A stretch of DNA of 64,000 nt from Dolomitihabitans soli. Lineage in GTDB: Bacteria > Actinomycetota > Actinomycetes > Streptosporangiales > Streptosporangiaceae. How positions within the stretch are numbered: position 1 is the stretch's first letter; each line of letters begins with the position of its first letter. The position numbers were made by a program, and so were the translations under genes. The notes below the pieces were generated by a model, which was not told where the DNA came from, made no database searches, and saw only the letters and a list, made by a program, of their open reading frames with translations. The stretch is from contig NZ_JAKNTW010000010.1 of the NCBI RefSeq assembly GCF_022213955.1, positions 310,001-374,000 of the forward strand. The letters run 5' to 3'. Shown in pieces: positions 15,511-25,153 of the stretch.

Positions 15511-17064
15511 TTGATCGGCGCTCGACGGCTCGCCGGGCGGTACCGGCTGCTGAACCCTCTGGGCGAGGGAGCTCTCGGAACGGTCTGGCTGGCGGCGGAC
15601 GATGTGCTGGGCCGCGATGTCGCGGTCAAGGAGGTACGGCTCCCGCCGGGGCTGGAGGAGTCACGGCGCAGGGAGATCTGCGAAGCGGCGGTGCGCGAGG
15701 CGAACGTCGCAGCGCGGCTGAAGCATCCCTCGATCGTCACCGTGCACGACGTACTCATCGAGGACGGCAGCCCCTGGCTGGTCATGGAACTGCTGAGCGG
15801 CACGTCGCTCGCGGAGACCGTCAGGCAGCAGGGGCCGCTGCCGCCGCACCAGGTCGCCAGGGCCGGGATGCACCTGTTGTCGGCGCTGACCGTCGCGCAC
15901 GCCGCCGGAGTGGTGCACCGGGACGTCAAACCGAGCAACGTCTTCCTCACCCGGACCGGGCGCGCGGTACTCACCGACTTCGGGATGGCCGCCATCGAAG
16001 GCGAGCCGTCGGCGAACCGGACCATGCACCTGGTCGGGGCGCCCGCCTTCATCGCCCCCGAGCGGTTGCGCGGGGAGCCCGACGGACCCGCGGGCGACCT
16101 GTGGTCACTGGGCGCCACGCTCTACTTCGGGGTGGAGGGGGTCGCACCGCATCACTCCGAGTCGCCGATCAGGGTGCTGACCATGGTCCTCACCGAACCG
16201 CCCAGGCTCCCGGAGCGCGCGGGACCGCTCGGGCCGATCCTGATGCGGCTGCTCGGCTCCGAGCCCGCGGACCGCCCGCCGGCGGCCGTGACGGCCGACA
16301 TCCTGCGCGGCATCGCCGGGGTGCGACGGCAACCGCCGGACACCCCGCCGACGCCCGCCGTACGGCAGGCGGCACCGCCCGCGCCACGGCGTCGCCGTAC
16401 GGGACTGGTGCTGGCGGCGGCGGTGGCCGCGCTCGCGGCGATCGCGGCGGGGACGGCGTTCGGCGTGAACGCGGTCACCGGCACGGAGAAGGCGGCCGCG
16501 CCGAGCCCTTCGCCCACCCGGCTGAGCGAGAGCCCCGGCAAGTTCGGCATCCCGGTGAAGTTCTGCGAGACGCTCACCGCCGAGCAGGTGGGCGGTCTGG
16601 TGACCGACTCGCTGAAGAACAAGAAGGGCACGCCGAACAACAAGGGGGGATGCGAGTGGCTGGGGAAGGGGATGGGCCTGTCCGCCGAGCCGGTGGGCTT
16701 CGAGGAACAGTGGGGCTCCAGCCCGCAGCGGGCCCACGAGCGGTTCGTCAGCCAGCGGAACCTGACCATCCCCTCGGGCACGGTCGGCTGGGCCTGGCCG
16801 GAGGTGGGCGTCGCGCTGCGCTCGGCGCGGGCGACGGCGGCCGAACCGGTCTCCGGCATTGGAGACGAGGCCTACGCCTATCACCAGTACGACAACCGGT
16901 CGCATCTGAAGCTGGAGCAGAGTTCCATCGTGATGCGGGTGGACAATCTGGTGGTGGAAGTCGGCTACACCGTCATCGACGGCAAGCGTGAGGAGAAGGA
17001 CATCCGCGAGGGCGCGAGAACGGCTGCGAGATGGATCGCCCAATCGTTGCAGCGGACGGGATGA
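15511..17064 (+). CDS. Transmembrane serine/threonine protein kinase (PknB-type, catalytically intact)
   Basis: This 517-residue type I-like membrane kinase has an N-terminal catalytic domain: Gly-loop GEGALGTVW, VAVK lysine at ~40, HRDVKPSN with Asp at ~138, DFG at 156-158, APERL at ~182. After a proline-rich linker comes one membrane helix (~298-318) and an extracellular region with two conserved cysteines (FCETLT, CEWLG) resembling DUF3558 lipoprotein domains. TTG 15511 is chosen because GGGAGAG lies 4 nt upstream and the protein then begins just before the kinase core; an ATG further upstream (15480 region) lacks a ribosome site. It heads a four-gene cassette; the next start is 4 nt after its stop. 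Confidence 0.9.
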   Translation: MIGARRLAGRYRLLNPLGEGALGTVWLAADDVLGRDVAVKEVRLPPGLEESRRREICEAAVREANVAARLKHPSIVTVHDVLIEDGSPWLVMELLSGTSLAETVRQQGPLPPHQVARAGMHLLSALTVAHAAGVVHRDVKPSNVFLTRTGRAVLTDFGMAAIEGEPSANRTMHLVGAPAFIAPERLRGEPDGPAGDLWSLGATLYFGVEGVAPHHSESPIRVLTMVLTEPPRLPERAGPLGPILMRLLGSEPADRPPAAVTADILRGIAGVRRQPPDTPPTPAVRQAAPPAPRRRRTGLVLAAAVAALAAIAAGTAFGVNAVTGTEKAAAPSPSPTRLSESPGKFGIPVKFCETLTAEQVGGLVTDSLKNKKGTPNNKGGCEWLGKGMGLSAEPVGFEEQWGSSPQRAHERFVSQRNLTIPSGTVGWAWPEVGVALRSARATAAEPVSGIGDEAYAYHQYDNRSHLKLEQSSIVMRVDNLVVEVGYTVIDGKREEKDIREGARTAARWIAQSLQRTG

Positions 17065-17067
17065 TCG

Positions 17068-18819
17068 ATGGACAACACCTCGCTTGAGCAGATGATCGGC
17101 CGGATCGGTCCGATGCCGCCGCAACGGGTCGCCGGCATCGGCCTGAACCTGCTCGCCGAACTGTCGGCCGCGGGCGGCACCCGGAGCGTACGGCCGGACC
17201 TGGTCATGCTCGCCCCCGACGGCCGGGTGTCCCTCGCCGACGACACCGGTCAGAACCCGCCGCCCGCCGGATACACGCCGCCGGAGGGGATGGCCGGGCC
17301 GGCCTCGGCGCTGTGGGCCCTGGGCGCGACGCTCTACACGGCCATCGAGGGCCGGCCGCCCGCCGCCGGCTCGTTCGCCACGCACGCCGGCCCGCTGGGT
17401 CCCATCCTGCACCGCATGCTCTCCCCCGACAGCGCCCAGCGGCCCGACGCCACCACCCTGTGGGCCCAGCTCCAGGACATCGCCGCCAACCGGCCCCCCG
17501 CCACTCCGTCGTCCCCCCGCCCCACCCGCGCGCCCGCCACGAACCCCCTCCCCGCCGCCAACCCCCACCACGGGCCGCCCGCCACCCCCGGCACCGCTCA
17601 CGACCCAGGCCACGCCCCCGGGCCCGACGTGGGCGCCGGCCCTGCTCCCGGTCCCGCCCTGCGGCACGCCCCCGACCCGAACCCGGGCCCTGAACCCTTC
17701 CCCTCCCACAGCCCTGACCCTTACTCGGGACAGGGACGTGACACGGATCGCGACCCCGGCCTTGACCCCGGCCTCGAAGCCGGCCCAGGACACGTACCCG
17801 AGCCCTGGCCCGGACACGGCCCCGGGTACAGCTCAGACCGTGGGCCCGGCGGCCTTCACCCTGATCCCGGACCCACCTCCGGCCCCGGACCCGGCTGGGA
17901 CGCGGGACCTGGGCTGGGCTCAGGACCCACCTCCGGCCCCGGACCCGGCCCGAACGCCGGACATGGACTGGGACCCGGACCCACCTCAGGGCTCGGCTCG
18001 GACACCGGACATGGACTCGGCCCCGCCCCGGACGCCGGTCCCGGGCCGGGCTCGGGCCATGCCGACGGCCCTGGGTCCGTGCCCGCGTTCCTGCCCCCCG
18101 GCACCGCGCCGACCCAACCCCCGTTCGCCGACCTGCCCAGGCGTAACGGTGTCCTGGTCCCCCGGTGGGTGATCGCGTTGGCGGGGGCGCTCGCCGTGGC
18201 GATGGCGGTGTCCATCGGCGTACTGGCGGCCCCCCTGCTCGGGGGCGGGAACGCACCCGCCGCCTCGCCCTCGCAGACCCCGAGCGCCGCCCCCGCCGAC
18301 GGGGAGAAGGGCAGGTTCGCCGCCGCCCCCCGCGCGTGCAGCCTGCTCGACGACGCCGTGGCCGCGGAACTGGTGCCCACCTTGAAGATCTCCGAGGTCG
18401 CGCCCGGCGAGTGCAACTGGCTGGCGAGCGACTGGCGGCTGCCGAACGGCGCGAAGTACGACCTGAGGCTGCGGATCACCTTCTACAAGCCCGACGGCAA
18501 CGAGGTGACCAAGGCGCGGGAACACTTCACCGGCAGGCGCGACGACCTGGCCGGCAAGGTGAAGTACTCGACCCCGAAGCCCTCCCCGCCACAGCCCGTG
18601 AACGGCATCGGCGACGAGTCCCTGACCTTCACGGAGATCAGCTCGATCAACCTGTACGGCGGTTCGACGAAGAGCCTCCTCCTCATCAGGGTGAGCAACG
18701 TCATCGCCGAGATCGAGTACGAGCACGGCGGCGCCAAGGGCGACAAGGACGGCAGGCTCGCCACGGGAGCGGAGAAGGCGGCCCGCGCCGTCGTGGGAGC
18801 GTTGAACGACCGTGACTGA
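17068..18819 (+). CDS. Truncated pseudokinase with Gly/Pro repeat linker and DUF3558-like ectodomain
   Basis: 583 residues. Residues ~8-140 align with the C-lobe of the neighbouring kinases (GPMPPQRVAGIGLNLL; LWALGATLYTAIEGRPP), but there is no N-lobe, no ATP lysine, HRD is replaced by TRS and DFG by DDT, so it cannot be an active kinase. Residues ~150-355 are a low-complexity Pro/Gly/Asp linker with repeats such as GPGPTSGPGPG. A membrane helix lies at ~366-388 and a two-cysteine ectodomain (RACSLLDD, GECNWLASDW) follows. It is co-transcribed between two intact kinases and probably acts as a scaffold or sensor subunit. The stop overlaps the next start by 8 nt. Confidence 0.82.
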   Translation: MDNTSLEQMIGRIGPMPPQRVAGIGLNLLAELSAAGGTRSVRPDLVMLAPDGRVSLADDTGQNPPPAGYTPPEGMAGPASALWALGATLYTAIEGRPPAAGSFATHAGPLGPILHRMLSPDSAQRPDATTLWAQLQDIAANRPPATPSSPRPTRAPATNPLPAANPHHGPPATPGTAHDPGHAPGPDVGAGPAPGPALRHAPDPNPGPEPFPSHSPDPYSGQGRDTDRDPGLDPGLEAGPGHVPEPWPGHGPGYSSDRGPGGLHPDPGPTSGPGPGWDAGPGLGSGPTSGPGPGPNAGHGLGPGPTSGLGSDTGHGLGPAPDAGPGPGSGHADGPGSVPAFLPPGTAPTQPPFADLPRRNGVLVPRWVIALAGALAVAMAVSIGVLAAPLLGGGNAPAASPSQTPSAAPADGEKGRFAAAPRACSLLDDAVAAELVPTLKISEVAPGECNWLASDWRLPNGAKYDLRLRITFYKPDGNEVTKAREHFTGRRDDLAGKVKYSTPKPSPPQPVNGIGDESLTFTEISSINLYGGSTKSLLLIRVSNVIAEIEYEHGGAKGDKDGRLATGAEKAARAVVGALNDRD

Positions 18820-20302
18820 TCCCGGCGTCCCCCCGGTGCTCGCCGGGCGCTACCGCGCGGTGGAGCTCCTCGGCTCCGGCGGCATGGGCGTCGTCTGGCG
18901 GGCCGTCGACGAGATGCTGCACCGCGAGGTGGCCATCAAGGAGGTACAGCCGGCGCCGTACCTCGGCCCGGCCCAGCGGCGGGAGCTGAGCGAGCGCACA
19001 CTCCGTGAGGCGCGTGCGGCGGCCAGGCTGGCGCATCCCGGCATCGTGGCGGTGCACGACGTGATCTCGCAGGACGGCCGGCCGTGGATCGTGATGGACC
19101 TGGTCAGGGGAAGGTCGCTGGACCAGGTGGTCAAGGAGGACGGCCCGCTGCCGCCCGCCGCGGCCGCCGCGGTCGGGCTGGCCGTGCTCGACGCGCTCGC
19201 GCTGGCCCACAGCCAGGGGATCATGCACCGGGACGTCAAACCGGCCAACATCATGATCGCGCACGACGGGAGCGTGCTGCTGGCCGACTTCGGCATCGCC
19301 ACCTTGGAGGGCGACGCCGGGATCACCTCGCCCGACAACCTGGTCGGCTCGCCCGGCTACATCGCGCCCGAGCGGCTGCGCGGCATCGAGGACGGCGCGG
19401 CGGCGGACCTGTGGTCGCTGGGCGCCACCCTCTACACCGCCGTCGAGGGCCAGGCGCCCTTCCACCGGGCCATACCGGTAGCCACCCTCGGCGCGGTGCT
19501 CACCCAGCCCACCCCCGAACCCGGAAGGGCCGGGCACCTCGGTCCCGTGCTGCTCGCCGTACTCGAAAAGGATCCTCAGCTGCGGCCGGGGGTCGCGGAA
19601 CTGCGAGAGGCGCTGCGCAAGGTGGCGGGCGGGCTGCCCGCGGCGTTGCCGGACGGCGGGCCCCGGCGGCGCGGCCCGCGCGGACGGATCCGGCTGATCG
19701 CCGTGCTGGCCGGGGTCGTCGTGGTGGCGGCGGCCGGCACGACGTTCGCGCTCACCCGCGCGGAGGACCGCCCGCCGCCGCGGCCCGCGCCGAGCGCCGC
19801 CGAGGCGGATGCCGGGCGTTTCACCGAGCTGCCCGACCCGTGCGAGCTGGTCACCGCCCGGCAGAGCAGGGCCGTGGCGCCGGGGACCACCCCCGATCCG
19901 GATCGCGACGACGCGAGGTTCTGCGACTGGGGCGGGCCGACCGAACCCGTCTGGCTGCGGGTCTCGCTCACCCTCCACCGGCCGGCCCAGGGGCTGGACG
20001 CACCCGCCGTGGCCCAGGAGTTCCTGCTGGCCCGCCGTACCAAGATCACGGCCGACGCGGGCACGGGCGTCTGGGGCAGTGTGCGGCCCGTCCAGGACGT
20101 GACCGGCGTGGGCAAGGACTCCTTCCGCCACGACACCGTCTCGCTGGGCTCCCGCGCCTACAGCACGATCGACTTCAGGTCGAGTAACCTCCTGGTCGAG
20201 GTCCAGCTCTCCGAGAAGGCGGAACAGCCGACCCGGATCCTGCGCCGCAACGCGCTGGAGACCGCCCGCGCCGTCGCAGAGGAGCTCAACAGCCGTGACT
20301 GA
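18812..20302 (+). CDS. Transmembrane serine/threonine protein kinase (catalytically intact)
   Basis: This 496-residue kinase has GSGGMGVVW Gly-loop, VAIK Lys43, HRDVKPAN with Asp141, DFG 159-161 and APERL. A single membrane helix lies at ~292-312, followed by an extracellular DUF3558-like domain with paired cysteines (PDPCELVT, FCDWGG). It starts with ATG-like GTG at 18812, overlapping the upstream pseudokinase stop by 8 nt, and its own stop overlaps the next gene by 8 nt. It therefore belongs to one tightly coupled transcription unit with two pseudokinases, which suggests assembly of heteromeric kinase complexes. Confidence 0.93.
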   Translation: MTDPGVPPVLAGRYRAVELLGSGGMGVVWRAVDEMLHREVAIKEVQPAPYLGPAQRRELSERTLREARAAARLAHPGIVAVHDVISQDGRPWIVMDLVRGRSLDQVVKEDGPLPPAAAAAVGLAVLDALALAHSQGIMHRDVKPANIMIAHDGSVLLADFGIATLEGDAGITSPDNLVGSPGYIAPERLRGIEDGAAADLWSLGATLYTAVEGQAPFHRAIPVATLGAVLTQPTPEPGRAGHLGPVLLAVLEKDPQLRPGVAELREALRKVAGGLPAALPDGGPRRRGPRGRIRLIAVLAGVVVVAAAGTTFALTRAEDRPPPRPAPSAAEADAGRFTELPDPCELVTARQSRAVAPGTTPDPDRDDARFCDWGGPTEPVWLRVSLTLHRPAQGLDAPAVAQEFLLARRTKITADAGTGVWGSVRPVQDVTGVGKDSFRHDTVSLGSRAYSTIDFRSSNLLVEVQLSEKAEQPTRILRRNALETARAVAEELNSRD

Positions 20303-21644
20303 CACCGGTCTGCTCGGGGGGCGCTACCGGCTGCTGGAACGGCTCGGCTGGGCCTGGCGGGCGCGCGACGAGCTGCTCCATCGCGACGTCGCGATCACGG
20401 AGGTACGGCTGCCGCCACCGAGCCGGGAGCGGGACGAGCTGGTCGCGGGCATCCGGGCCACGGCCGCGCTCCGGCACCCCGACATCGTCACGACGCATGA
20501 CGTGTTGTCCTCCACCGACCGGCTGTGGGTGGTCCAGGAACTCGTCGAGGGGCCGACCCTCGCGCAGGCGCTGCGCACGAGCGGGCCGTTGCCCGCCCGG
20601 CGGGTGGCCCTGATCGGCCTGCGCGTCCTGGCGGCCCTCACCGCCGCGGGCATGCCGCACGGCGGCCTCACCCCGAACACCGTCATCCTGACCGGCGACG
20701 ACGGCGTGGCGGTGATCGGCTTCGGACTCGTCAGCGGAACCGTCACCGACGATCTCCACGCCCTGGGCGCACTGCTCTTCACCGCCGTCGAGGGTCACGC
20801 GCCGGACCGGAACACCACGCCGATCTCGCTCGGCGGCACCCCGCTGAGCGACCCGCACTCCAGCAGGATGCCCTCCGGCCCGCTCGCTCCCCTGCTGTAC
20901 GGCCTGCTCGACGACGACCCCGCGCACCGCCCCGACGCCCGCTCGGTGCGGCTGACCCTGCAACGCGTGGCCCCGCCCGGCCGGCGGCACACCCGCACCA
21001 GGCTCGCGGCCCTCGCCGGGACCCTGCTCCTCGCGGCGGCCTTCGCCACCACGGCGGTGATCGTACGGCCCGCGCCCCCGGCCCGGCTCCCCGGACCGGG
21101 CCCGACGTCGGCCGACCCGTCGGTGTCGCTGCCGTCCCACTTCGCCGCCGCCCCCGACCCCTGCAAACTGATCACGCGGGAGCAGGCGGCCGAACTGTCC
21201 CTGGCGGCGGCGCCCGAGGCGGAGAAGGGCGAGTGCCGGTGGCGGCCCGCCGACGACCACAACTCGGTCCCCTCCAACCTCAGGTACAGCCTGTGGCTCC
21301 AAGTGCGGCACTACACGCCCAAGTTCGGCGACACCGCCGAGGAGCGCGCTCGGGTGAACCTGGTGCGGTTCCGCCAGAATGACCTCGGTCAGAAGAAGTC
21401 GCCCGCGGGACTGCCGCTCACGCTGGTCGTCCCGCCCCGCGACCTGCCGGGAACGGGGCACGCGGCCTACACCTTCGAGGCGACCAACACCCTGTCCTAC
21501 AACTCGGCCGTGGTGCTCCGCGTCGCGAACGTGATCGTCGCCGTGCAGTACGAGCGCGCGATCGGGAAGGATCCACGGCACACCGGCCGCGCGGGGGCGC
21601 ACAAGACCGCACGGTGGGTGCTGGAATCACTGGCCGCCGGATGA
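20295..21644 (+). CDS. Transmembrane Ser/Thr pseudokinase
   Basis: 449 residues. The kinase fold is recognisable from GGRYRLLERLG through the C-lobe, but every key catalytic residue is lost: the Gly-loop is shortened (LGWAWRARD), the ATP lysine is Thr35 (VAITEV), HRD is HGG at 122-124 and DFG is GFG at 142-144. One membrane helix (~238-258) leads to a two-cysteine ectodomain (PDPCKLIT, GECRWRP). It is the fourth and last gene of the cassette. The domain order matches the active kinases, so it is likely an allosteric partner or signal-binding subunit. Confidence 0.88.
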   Translation: MTDTGLLGGRYRLLERLGWAWRARDELLHRDVAITEVRLPPPSRERDELVAGIRATAALRHPDIVTTHDVLSSTDRLWVVQELVEGPTLAQALRTSGPLPARRVALIGLRVLAALTAAGMPHGGLTPNTVILTGDDGVAVIGFGLVSGTVTDDLHALGALLFTAVEGHAPDRNTTPISLGGTPLSDPHSSRMPSGPLAPLLYGLLDDDPAHRPDARSVRLTLQRVAPPGRRHTRTRLAALAGTLLLAAAFATTAVIVRPAPPARLPGPGPTSADPSVSLPSHFAAAPDPCKLITREQAAELSLAAAPEAEKGECRWRPADDHNSVPSNLRYSLWLQVRHYTPKFGDTAEERARVNLVRFRQNDLGQKKSPAGLPLTLVVPPRDLPGTGHAAYTFEATNTLSYNSAVVLRVANVIVAVQYERAIGKDPRHTGRAGAHKTARWVLESLAAG

Positions 21645-21939: not shown

Positions 21940-22260
21940 TCAGGCGGTCGCGGTCGCGGCCACCTGCTCGTGCACGCGCTGGGTGACCTTGCGTTCGATC
22001 ACGAACGAGAGGAGGGGGACCGTCCCCGCCAGCAGCACACCCAGCGTGTACGGCCAGTTCCAGCGCGCCTTGAGCCCGAGGTTGAGCGCGGCGAGCAGGT
22101 AGACCGCGTAGAGGAAGCCGTGGATCGGCGAGATGATCGACACCGGGCCGGGAATGTCGAAGCCGTACTTCAGCACCATGCCGGCGACCAGCAGCAGCAG
22201 CATGCAGCCGACGATGTAGGCGAGCACCCTGAAGGGCTTGAGGGCGGATTCCACGATCAT
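21940..22260 (-). CDS. DUF3817 domain membrane protein
   Basis: This 106-residue protein has three hydrophobic segments (LAYIVGCMLLLLVAGMVL, IHGFLYAVYLLAALNLGL, YTLGVLLAGTVPLLSFVIE). The pattern HGFLYAVYL and FVIERKV is characteristic of DUF3817 (YdzA-like) integral membrane proteins. It follows the SURF1 gene with no gap, so the two are probably co-transcribed. The molecular function of the family is not established. Confidence 0.85.
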   Translation of the reverse strand: MIVESALKPFRVLAYIVGCMLLLLVAGMVLKYGFDIPGPVSIISPIHGFLYAVYLLAALNLGLKARWNWPYTLGVLLAGTVPLLSFVIERKVTQRVHEQVAATATA

Positions 22261-23025
22261 CTACCTCGTTGCAGATTCGGACAGGGGCACGGGTTGCGGG
22301 GCAGGCGGGGGATTCTTCCGGCTGCGCACCGCGTCCCGGACGAAGTGGAACCACATGAAGACCGCGAACGCCCCGAACAGCCACCAGTTGAGGGCATAGG
22401 CCAGGTTACGCCAGTTGAAGGGGCCCTCCTCGCGGGGCGCCTCGGCGGCGACCGCTTTGAGGGGCACCGCCGGGGCGGGGGTCTGCGCGCTGGCCACGAC
22501 GTAACCGTCACGCAGCCGCTTCCCCTGCCACACGTTGACCAGCTCGGCGGTGGAGATGCTGAGCAACTGGCCGTCGGGGAGCCGCCTGACGTCCCGCCGT
22601 ACGCTGTCGACCTGCTCCGAGGGGCGCAGCCGCCCGGCGACCGCGACCTTCCCGCCGGGGACCGTCGCCGGGTCGCCGGCCTGGGCGACCCAGCCGCGCA
22701 CGACGGGCAGCGCCGTGCCGTCGGCCAGGTCGAGCGGGGCGAGCACCCAGAAGCCGCCGTCGCGGCCGGTGACGAGGACCTGCCGGTCGGCGTCGAAGGT
22801 GCCCTCCGCCGTCACCCTGCGGCTCACCGCGTCGGCGGTGAGATGCCTGCCCGGCTCGGAGAGCGTCGTGACGCCCACCGGGGCCGGATCCCTGGCCGCG
22901 CGCGGCGCTCCCGAATCCTCGAACACACCGAGCTGCCACCGGCCGAGCAGGACGAAAGAGGCCAGAACCGCGATCGTCACCAGGTGCAGACCCACCAAAC
23001 TGGGCGAGAGCACGGTCTTGAGCAT
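22261..23025 (-). CDS. SURF1 family cytochrome oxidase biogenesis protein
   Basis: This 254-residue protein has an N-terminal membrane helix (LVTIAVLASFVLLGRWQLGVF, containing the SURF1 signature GxWQL), a periplasmic domain with VTAEGTFD, VLVTGRDGGFWVLAPL and PVVRGWV, and a second helix near residues 205-225 (LAYALNWWLFGAFAVFMW). SURF1 proteins help insert haem a into subunit I of aa3-type cytochrome c oxidase. The gene is divergent from a small membrane protein gene and precedes DUF3817. Confidence 0.93.
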   Translation of the reverse strand: MLKTVLSPSLVGLHLVTIAVLASFVLLGRWQLGVFEDSGAPRAARDPAPVGVTTLSEPGRHLTADAVSRRVTAEGTFDADRQVLVTGRDGGFWVLAPLDLADGTALPVVRGWVAQAGDPATVPGGKVAVAGRLRPSEQVDSVRRDVRRLPDGQLLSISTAELVNVWQGKRLRDGYVVASAQTPAPAVPLKAVAAEAPREEGPFNWRNLAYALNWWLFGAFAVFMWFHFVRDAVRSRKNPPPAPQPVPLSESATR

Positions 23026-23140
23026 GGCTCCACGCTATCCGCCCGGCAGGTCGGTCCCGTCCGCGGCACCCCGATACCCATCCCCGCCAAGTCGGACATT
23101 CGGGTGTCGGTGACGACCTCTCTGTCGTTAGAGTCGTCTC

Positions 23141-23311
23141 ATGTCTGATCCGCAGATCGATCCCGCGGGAAACACACAGCAGTTCCGCGCCTTCGCCCAG
23201 AACAATGAGCAGGAGACCGCCAAGCAGCGGACCTCCTACGTGATCCCGATCACCATCGCGGTGGTCGCGGTCGTCATCATCGCTGTGGGAGCCTTCCTTC
23301 TCCTGAGCTGA
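23141..23311 (+). CDS. Small single-pass membrane protein
   Basis: 56 residues. The soluble N-terminus (MSDPQIDPAGNTQQFRAFAQ) is Gln/Asn-rich, and one C-terminal helix follows (YVIPITIAVVAVVIIAVGAFLLLS). The start ATG 23141 follows an A/T-richer region (TCTCTGTCGTTAGAG) likely to hold its promoter. A strong terminator follows at 23343. It is divergent from SURF1, and similar short tail-anchored proteins occur at this position in other actinomycetes. That last point is from memory. Function unknown. Confidence 0.75.
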   Translation: MSDPQIDPAGNTQQFRAFAQNNEQETAKQRTSYVIPITIAVVAVVIIAVGAFLLLS

Positions 23312-23342
23312 ACCGGGCGACGAACCGGGCGACACCGCCGTG

Positions 23343-23373
23343 GCGCCGATGGCCGAAAGGCTTCGGCGCTTTT
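23343..23373 (+). terminator. Rho-independent terminator after the small membrane protein gene
   Basis: GCGCCGA (23343-23349) pairs with TCGGCGC (23363-23369), extended by an inner GCC/GGC around a GAAA loop, and TTTT follows at 23370-23373. It ends rightward transcription just before the convergent gamma-glutamyltransferase gene end at 23393. Confidence 0.75.
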
Positions 23374-23392
23374 GGCGCGCCCGCGAAACCGC

Positions 23393-25153
23393 TCATCTCC
23401 GGGGGCTCACCACCAGTGCGCTGCCGCCGCCTCGCCGGACCGGCTCGGCGACCGCCTGGACCTTCCCCCTGCCCAGGAACTCCAGCCCGGTGGCCGCGCC
23501 GATCTCGGGGTTCGGCGTGAACGCGTGTCCCCGTGCGGTGAGCGCCGGGCCGTGGGCGGCGATGAATCCCGGCTCGGCCTGGGTCGTGGCGGTGTTGCGC
23601 TGGGTGGCCCGGGGCGCGGTCAGCGCCTGCGGCAGTGACATGCCCAGGTCGTACCGGTTGACCAGGATCTGCAGCACGGTGGTGATGATCGTCGAGCCGC
23701 CGGGGGAGCCGACGGCGAGCACCGGGCGGCCCTCGTCGAGGACGATCGTCGGGGCCATCGAGGAACGCGGCCGCTTGCCGGGAGCGGGCAGGTTGGGGTC
23801 GCCGGGCGCGGGGCCGAAGGTGAAGTCGGTCAGCTCGTTGTTCAGCAGGAACCCCCGGCCGGGGACCACGATGCCGTTCCCGCCCGTCGACTCGATCGTG
23901 ATGTTGTAGGCGACCACGTTGCCCCACCGGTCGGACACCACGAGGTGGGTGGTCTCCGGCCCCTCAGGACCGGGCTTCTGCTCGGTGGCGACGTCTGCGG
24001 GCGGGCACGGCTCGTAGGCGCCGTCGGGCGTGCCCGGGGCCGCCGGGTGCGGCATCGCCCGGTCGCCCACCAGGCAGGCCCGCTCCCCGGCGAACCCGCT
24101 GGAGAGGAGCTCCTTCAGCGGCACGTCCACGAAGTCGGCGTCGCCGACGTACTTGCCCCGGTCGGCGAAGGCCAGCCTGGACGCTTCGAGATACTCGTGC
24201 TCGGTGACCTGGGGCACCGCCTCCAGGATGTTCAGCGCCTCGCCGACCGTGGAGCCGCCCGAGGACGGCGGCGCCATGCCGTACACCTCCATGCCCCGGT
24301 AGGTGACCGGGGCGGGGCGGCGCTCGACGGCGCGGTAGGCGCGCAGGTCGGACAGTTCCATCAGGCCGGGGCGCACGGTGCGGGTGGATCCGGGGGTGAC
24401 GGGCGGGCGTTTGACCGTGGCCACGACCTCCTCGCCGAGCCGCCCGCCGTACAGCCAGGACGGGCCGCGCCTGCCCAGTTCCCGGTAGGTCTTCGCGAGG
24501 TCGGGGTTGCGGAAGGTCGAGCCGACCGGGGGCGGCGCGCCGCCGGGCAGGTACAGGGCGGCGGTGGAGGCGATGTCCTTGAAGCGGGCCGCGTTGGCCG
24601 CCGTCTGGTCGTGGAAGGTCTGGTCGACCACGAAGCCCCTGGCCGCGACCTCGGCGGCGGGCTTGAGCGCCTGGTCGAAGCCGATCGTGCCGAACCTGCG
24701 CAGCGCCAGCTCCCACTGGGCCACGCTGCCGGGCACGCCCGCCGACAGGCCGCTGGTGACGGCGTCGTCGAACGGGATCGGCCGGCCGTTCTCCTGCAGG
24801 GAGGTCTCCGTCATGGCGCCGGGGGCCTTCTCCCGGCCGTCGATCGTGAAGATCTTCTCCCGCCGGGCGTCGTAGTAGACGATGAAGCCGCCTCCGGCGA
24901 GGCCCGCCGAGTAGGGCTCCGTCACGCCCAGGGTCGCCGCCGCCGCGACCGCCGCGTCCATCGCGTTGCCGCCCTTCCGCAACACCGAGATGGCCGCCTT
25001 GCTGGCGTCGAGGTCGACGGTCGCCACCGCGCCGCCGTACCCCTCCGCGACCGGCGTCTTGTCCTGATCAGGGGAGGCCGCCTGGGCCGGCGGGACCAGC
25101 AGGCCCGCGACGAGGACGGCCCCCAGGGCGGGTACGGCAAGGCGTGCGGTCAT
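23393..25153 (-). CDS. ggt: Gamma-glutamyltransferase
   Basis: This 586-residue secreted enzyme has a cleavable signal peptide (LAVPALGAVLVAGLLVPPAQA). It would hydrolyse or transfer the gamma-glutamyl group of glutathione-like compounds or other gamma-glutamyl peptides outside the cell. The proenzyme cleaves itself before the catalytic Thr, here in PETTHLVVSD. GGNAMDAAVAAAATLGVTEP and the substrate-loop region MAPTIVL, GSPGGSTIIT are intact. The start is ATG 25153. It is a monocistronic-looking gene convergent with the small membrane protein gene. Confidence 0.93.
   Translation of the reverse strand: MTARLAVPALGAVLVAGLLVPPAQAASPDQDKTPVAEGYGGAVATVDLDASKAAISVLRKGGNAMDAAVAAAATLGVTEPYSAGLAGGGFIVYYDARREKIFTIDGREKAPGAMTETSLQENGRPIPFDDAVTSGLSAGVPGSVAQWELALRRFGTIGFDQALKPAAEVAARGFVVDQTFHDQTAANAARFKDIASTAALYLPGGAPPPVGSTFRNPDLAKTYRELGRRGPSWLYGGRLGEEVVATVKRPPVTPGSTRTVRPGLMELSDLRAYRAVERRPAPVTYRGMEVYGMAPPSSGGSTVGEALNILEAVPQVTEHEYLEASRLAFADRGKYVGDADFVDVPLKELLSSGFAGERACLVGDRAMPHPAAPGTPDGAYEPCPPADVATEQKPGPEGPETTHLVVSDRWGNVVAYNITIESTGGNGIVVPGRGFLLNNELTDFTFGPAPGDPNLPAPGKRPRSSMAPTIVLDEGRPVLAVGSPGGSTIITTVLQILVNRYDLGMSLPQALTAPRATQRNTATTQAEPGFIAAHGPALTARGHAFTPNPEIGAATGLEFLGRGKVQAVAEPVRRGGGSALVVSPRR

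Follow-up and report, generated by a model that had tools for sequence, protein, structure and literature searches.

Four adjacent genes of Dolomitihabitans soli encode related membrane sensors, two with live and two with dead kinase domains

Hanks-type receptor kinases, sensor folds like that of PknH, and pseudokinases in bacteria are each already known. PknH of M. tuberculosis (extracellular domain, PDB 4esq) is encoded by one gene and joins a Hanks kinase through one membrane helix to a disulfide-bearing extracellular domain, PknB/StkP has PASTA repeats, and the LpqN/DUF3558 proteins are lipoproteins whose fold is related to that of the ectodomains described below. In eukaryotic receptor/pseudokinase pairs such as HER2/HER3, live and dead paralogous receptors act in one unit in which the dead one is the allosteric or recognition arm. 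Bacterial Ser/Thr pseudokinases have been almost left uncharacterised, and families of unknown function have been listed (PMC12599244). MviN, one of the ActPs3 pseudokinases, is a membrane protein of peptidoglycan synthesis whose pseudokinase recruits FhaA (PMC12599244). The open-access literature yielded no account of a fixed multi-gene unit that combines live with dead receptor paralogues, and none of a conserved pseudokinase whose ectodomain can be exchanged.

In the soil actinomycete Dolomitihabitans soli, four adjacent and co-oriented genes encode four related membrane sensors, two of which are live kinases (K1 and K3) and two of which are dead (P2 and P4). They lie in the 64,000-nucleotide stretch of DNA that was analysed, referred to as the window in the rest of the paper, which contains the following features.

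15511..17064, forward strand: K1, live PknB-type kinase with a membrane helix and a position-1 ectodomain; TTG start
15538..16332, forward strand: K1 kinase domain (VAVKE, HRDVKPSN, DFG, APE)
16405..16461, forward strand: K1 membrane helix
16528..17061, forward strand: K1 ectodomain with two Cys, in the universal position-1 clade
17068..18819, forward strand: P2, C-lobe-only pseudokinase with a long Pro/Gly linker, a membrane helix and an ectodomain
17068..17499, forward strand: P2 kinase remnant, C-lobe only (TRS for HRD, DDT for DFG, PPE for APE)
18169..18225, forward strand: P2 membrane helix
18301..18816, forward strand: P2 ectodomain, predicted PsbP/Mog1-like fold (AlphaFold2 pLDDT 93)
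18812..20302, forward strand: K3, live kinase with a membrane helix and a variable ectodomain
18848..19642, forward strand: K3 kinase domain (VAIKE, HRDVKPAN, DFG, APE)
19694..19750, forward strand: K3 membrane helix
19805..20299, forward strand: K3 ectodomain
20295..21644, forward strand: P4, pseudokinase with N-lobe and dimer face, activation segment deleted, a membrane helix and a hypervariable ectodomain
20322..20987, forward strand: P4 pseudokinase domain (Lys>Thr, HGG, GFG), predicted two-lobe kinase fold (AlphaFold2 pLDDT 89)
21009..21065, forward strand: P4 membrane helix; interspecies identity falls just before and across it
21126..21641, forward strand: P4 ectodomain, class A in the window; classes A and B are about 28-38% identical across genera
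21940..25153, reverse strand: genes for DUF3817, SURF1 and gamma-glutamyltransferase that converge on the cassette; its conserved address in relatives

A first-pass annotation of this DNA had described two intact PknB-type kinases (15511 and 18812) and two catalytically dead partners (17068 and 20295), each with one membrane helix and a two-cysteine C-terminal domain, encoded by genes whose starts and stops overlap or nearly touch. All of this held. In K1 and K3 all canonical kinase motifs are present, while P2 has TRS and DDT at the catalytic positions, and P4 has VAITE, in which Thr replaces the beta-3 Lys, HGG for HRD and GFG for DFG, and is missing the activation segment. Hydropathy and the positive-inside pattern gave one strong hydrophobic helix in each protein, followed by exactly two ectodomain cysteines, which is the single helix plus extracellular C-terminal domain that marks a receptor kinase. 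P2 starts 3 nt after K1, and the P2-K3 and K3-P4 junctions are overlaps of 8 nt each; a scan for internal promoters and terminators returned one weak promoter-like site at 17069 and no terminator, and was uninformative. The TTG start of K1 at 15511 is backed by an N-terminus, MIGxRxLAGRYRLLNPLGEG, that is conserved in other genera. The kinase HMM aligned to P2 only from about position 88, P2 beginning at the C-lobe. Between this remnant and the helix (window 17500-18150) runs a repetitive Gly/Pro/Asp-rich linker, the length of which differs among the orthologues in which the remnant is retained.

The P2 ectodomain is predicted to adopt a fold of the PsbP/Mog1/DcrB/LpqN kind; the best TM-score among the listed fold matches was that of the PknH extracellular domain 4esq (0.60, E 5e-3), and the matches to the PsbP/Mog1 superfamily had E-values of about 1e-4, with no sequence-level relative among solved PDB structures. 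The earlier proposal of a DUF3558-like ectodomain was right as to likeness, but the likeness is weak, since the DUF3558 profile (PF12079) scored 27.6, 11.3, 17.2 and 22.4 bits for K1, P2, K3 and P4, all below the cut-off of 34.1. The same profile weakly matches 39 of 88 ectodomains of the wider family, which unlike the LpqN/DUF3558 proteins are not lipoproteins and are tethered to kinases. The PknH_C profile (PF14032) matched neither the window proteins nor any of the 88 ectodomains; the cassette further differs from PknH in consisting of four paralogues, two of them dead kinases, each with one Cys pair. The kinase halves of K1, K3 and even dead P4 are nearest to PknB in sequence, and dimer-face residues are kept, but Pfam and NCBIfam scans found no PASTA repeats in the window proteins, and the cassette has another ectodomain fold and spreads over several genes that include pseudokinases. 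Likeness to HER2/HER3 would be one of function only, as neither ectodomain nor system is homologous and a complex is for the cassette an inferred one. PADLOC matches to anti-phage systems (PD-T4-6, MADS6, PglW) were discarded as generic kinase models that hit mainly the kinase/membrane part, far under the NCBIfam cut-offs.

Orthologues of the cassette were seen first in 6 other genomes of the same family, the Streptosporangiaceae. The single P2 sequence, used as query against genome contigs, retrieved no relatives; a profile search with an alignment of the P2 ectodomain was needed, and recovered 22 named loci in Microtetraspora, Thermocatellispora, Streptosporangium (8), Spongiactinospora (2), Sinosporangium, Planobispora (4), Planomonospora (4) and Rhizohabitans, so that counts of 23 are these plus the window. 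A search for the four-gene order, which the first-pass annotation had proposed, found K-P-K-P with overlaps or short gaps in 21 of the 23 loci, namely 20 named ones from all eight genera and the window; conservation of P2 in the 22 is partly by construction, as they were found through its ectodomain, and that of K1, K3 and P4 is not. In the remaining two loci, both from Planomonospora, K3 and P4 are lost together and the K1 that stays with P2 is dead. This two-gene remnant (L084 5600-9522, L088 5702-9522), with HRG and Lys>Arg in K1, is apparently kinase-dead and has a dN/dS of 0.14-0.33 (purifying). In 20 of 22 loci the quartet is followed by convergent genes for DUF3817 and SURF1, and it has therefore been inherited in place. 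We rejected DUF3817-SURF1 as a functional partner, these genes being the chromosomal address of the quartet, and no neighbour other than antisense artefacts is conserved across all cassette types.

The first-pass annotation had reasoned that relatives without the pseudokinases, or with frameshifted, decaying copies of them, would make the set duplication debris. Instead the dead genes are intact, with no frameshift or stop in 21 P4 or 23 P2 genes, at a fixed locus and under purifying selection, which acts on all four cytoplasmic halves, the dead ones included: between related species dN/dS was 0.03-0.41 for K1, 0.11-0.40 for K3, 0.20-0.57 for P2 and 0.21-0.47 for P4 (Nei-Gojobori; single values are rough, some pairs having small dS). 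The ectodomains mostly diverge faster than the kinase halves, with mean identities over all loci (ectodomain/kinase half) of 59/70% for K1, 59/60% for P2, 48/78% for K3 and 37/61% for P4. Together with the dN/dS values these identities rule out the idea that the dead kinases decay while the ectodomains are conserved, P4 showing the reverse. These data speak against debris: the dead subunits are conserved, position-specific members of a set that is inherited together, and their kinases probably have a genuine place in a shared receptor.

The four subunits differ in how strictly their kinase part is kept. The catalytic Lys, HRD, Asn and DFG are intact in K3 wherever it is present (21 loci) and in K1 in 19 of 23; since K1 has lost a catalytic residue in the other four, K3 is the sole kinase that is always live. 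P2 is without its kinase part in three loci (Sinosporangium and two Spongiactinospora), where the following orthologues retain the membrane helix and the ectodomain.

L076 8725-9552: remnant-free P2
L092 5614-6408: remnant-free P2
L077 8083-9558: remnant-free P2, still with a long N-terminal stretch rich in Pro

The dead kinase part of P2 is thus dispensable, and because helix and ectodomain persist where it is absent, P2 is mainly an ectodomain subunit. In P4 the HRD Asp is lost in 21/21 proteins and the DFG Asp and the beta-3 Lys each in 20/21, and the cytoplasmic part is predicted by AlphaFold2 as a two-lobe kinase minus the activation segment. Equivalents of R10, L33 and D76 (PknB numbering), which we take to form the N-lobe back-to-back dimer face, are retained in 21/21, 20/21 and 21/21 P4 proteins, respectively. 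The importance of N-lobe dimerisation (PMC6213207) and that of the analogous residues of MviN (PMC12599244) have been described. The retention in P4 is no more than suggestive, these residues being also general to the N-lobe and many other non-catalytic positions being conserved as well. With N-lobe and dimer face kept, P4 appears a better candidate than P2 for an allosteric partner. It answers to the description of ActPs3 pseudokinases, with three catalytic motifs lost, the activation loop deleted, a membrane helix behind the kinase and a constrained back-to-back face (PMC12599244), but differs from them and from MviN in being nearest to active PknB/PknA among solved relatives, in carrying a sensor ectodomain and in lying beside live paralogues. 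Both ectodomain Cys are gone together from P4 of Streptosporangium saharense, which fits a disulfide.

Outside the membrane P4 behaves differently. Between Planomonospora venezuelensis and P. sp. ID67723 the pseudokinase half of P4 is 91% identical and the ectodomain 28-31%, the fall in identity setting in shortly before the membrane helix and continuing across it. The P4 ectodomains fall into classes about 30% identical to one another that cut across genera, Planobispora, Planomonospora and Streptosporangium each holding both. AU tests on this ectodomain rejected the monophyly of Planobispora (delta lnL 122, p 6e-48) and of Planomonospora (p 1.6e-5), whereas the tree of the P4 pseudokinase half recovers both, Planobispora with weak support. 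The same tests had a small effect for ectodomains 1 and 2 (p 0.02-0.06) and a moderate one for ectodomain 3 (p 0.007). The outer part of P4 is thus swapped between lineages while the inner part stays, as would suit a recognition arm; recombination between diverged alleles would be the simplest cause. Class B could not be traced to import from another cassette type, where it has no better match, and is a diverged position-4 lineage. Among Streptosporangium species, gene 4 has the class B ectodomain in some (L083/L093) and class A in others (e.g. L078). The class B domain of S. carneum is only 31-38% like other members, and more classes may exist.

The ectodomain also occurs in cassettes of other composition.

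K-K-K-E: D. soli genome, C26; also G003, cut by a contig end
K-P-P-K: G016
K-K-P-P: G080
K-K-EE, with a fused double ectodomain: G003, G074, G082, G034, G062
EE-EE, kinase-free: D. soli genome, C81

The alternation of live and dead genes noted in the first-pass annotation accordingly holds for 21 of 23 loci, this one included, but is not universal among relatives; it is the form that a broader four-ectodomain cassette takes in one lineage. The number of ectodomains per cassette is nearly always four, the fused EE keeping that total in K-K-EE; the exceptions are five in G097, two in G073, the two halved Planomonospora quartets and an extra divergent ectodomain gene in C26. On a tree of 63 domains, all 16 first-position ectodomains, drawn from several architectures and including the first ectodomain of kinase-free C81, group as a single clade (100/99). 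Labels for the four positions require 8 changes, compared to 35.2 in shuffles; labels 2, 3 and 4 are not single clades. Since the position clade spans live, dead and kinase-free cassettes, the positions are older than the present kinase state. We infer that the ancestral unit had four ectodomains, to which live, dead or no kinase was attached.

We hold with moderate confidence that the quartet forms one heteromeric receptor kinase, in which the dead kinases would be structural or allosteric arms and P4 a replaceable recognition arm. The heteromeric complex of the first-pass annotation survives in part: conserved, co-inherited dead subunits, EE fusions and the near-constant four fit it, but the alternation belongs to one lineage and the kinase part of P2 is dispensable. 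As we picture it from these comparisons, four paralogous, position-specific PsbP/Mog1-like ectodomains (perhaps the PknH sensor fold), each on one helix, would assemble outside the membrane into a physical complex, which may then be built of the pairs K1:P2 and K3:P4. This pairing is put forward tentatively, because the ectodomain distances of K1 and P2 remain correlated once species distance is removed (partial Mantel r 0.68, p 0.0005) and K3 and P4 were lost jointly in two Planomonospora; co-variation of the K3 and P4 ectodomains is not clear (r 0.16, p 0.055), nor is that of any other pair. K3 would be the obligate catalytic subunit, with K1 usually catalytic too, and P2 would supply mainly its ectodomain. 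Ligand would bind outside, P4 being the variable arm that likely sets specificity; binding would make the dead P4 N-lobe engage K3 back-to-back and switch it on, or hold it off, K1:P2 would act as a second, more conserved pair, and the conserved cytoplasmic parts would pass the signal to a presumed substrate. A bolder version, which we regard as doubtful, makes the pseudokinases interchangeable recognition arms of four-subunit receptor kinases, with the pseudokinase N-lobe relaying binding to the live paralogue and the P4 ectodomain, and less so that of K3, under diversifying or balancing selection with trans-genus alleles, as in self/non-self, competitor or phage recognition.

Should the four instead be independent operon-mates, each would homodimerise and bind its own ligand, the dead ones acting as decoys or else scaffolding proteins of the cytoplasm, a role for which MviN is a precedent (PMC12599244), and no mixed complex would form. 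This would suit the K3 and P4 ectodomains, which evolve largely independently of K1/P2, and the faster divergence of the K1, K3 and P4 ectodomains relative to their kinase parts; we think it unlikely, as position-specific orthology across differing cytoplasmic states, the EE fusions, the near-constant four and the K1-P2 co-variation are better accommodated by a shared assembly. It is more improbable again that the ectodomains bind the envelope or act as carriers in the manner of LpqN/DcrB, with the kinase halves as secondary regulators and the dead ones as tolerated anchors. The fold matches to PsbP, DcrB and LpqN, the kinase-free C81 and the three kinase-less P2 proteins would be at home there, but a pseudokinase half in P4 that is under purifying selection and exceeds its ectodomain in mean identity (61% vs 37%) is no passive anchor, and the K3 motifs are never lost where K3 is present. 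That the genes are tandem copies of one kinase, two of them decaying, is very hard to credit, for although all four share an ancestor and the N-lobe is gone from P2 and the activation segment from P4, the same order and near-identical junctions recur in nine genera with deep positional orthology, the P2 and P4 reading frames are unbroken and their dN/dS is 0.20-0.57.

The locus is of interest as a compact genetic case: in 20 named loci and the window, live receptors have been inherited together with dead paralogues; natural experiments are at hand in the loci that lost the dead kinase part or one pair, in the fusions, and in the exchange of ectodomains on a pseudokinase that stays conserved; and it makes heteromeric bacterial receptor-kinase signalling with pseudokinases, as in animals and plants, testable in culturable actinomycetes. 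As for the two other cassettes of the D. soli genome, C26:34232-40800 (L037 2233-8800) holds in a row three genes for live kinases and one for a kinase-free member, with a further ectodomain gene in divergent orientation, an arrangement seen also in G003 (L049/L072) up to the contig end. The other, C81:403907-405858 (L068 7908-9859, minus strand), consists of two adjacent genes, each coding for two ectodomains and no kinase.
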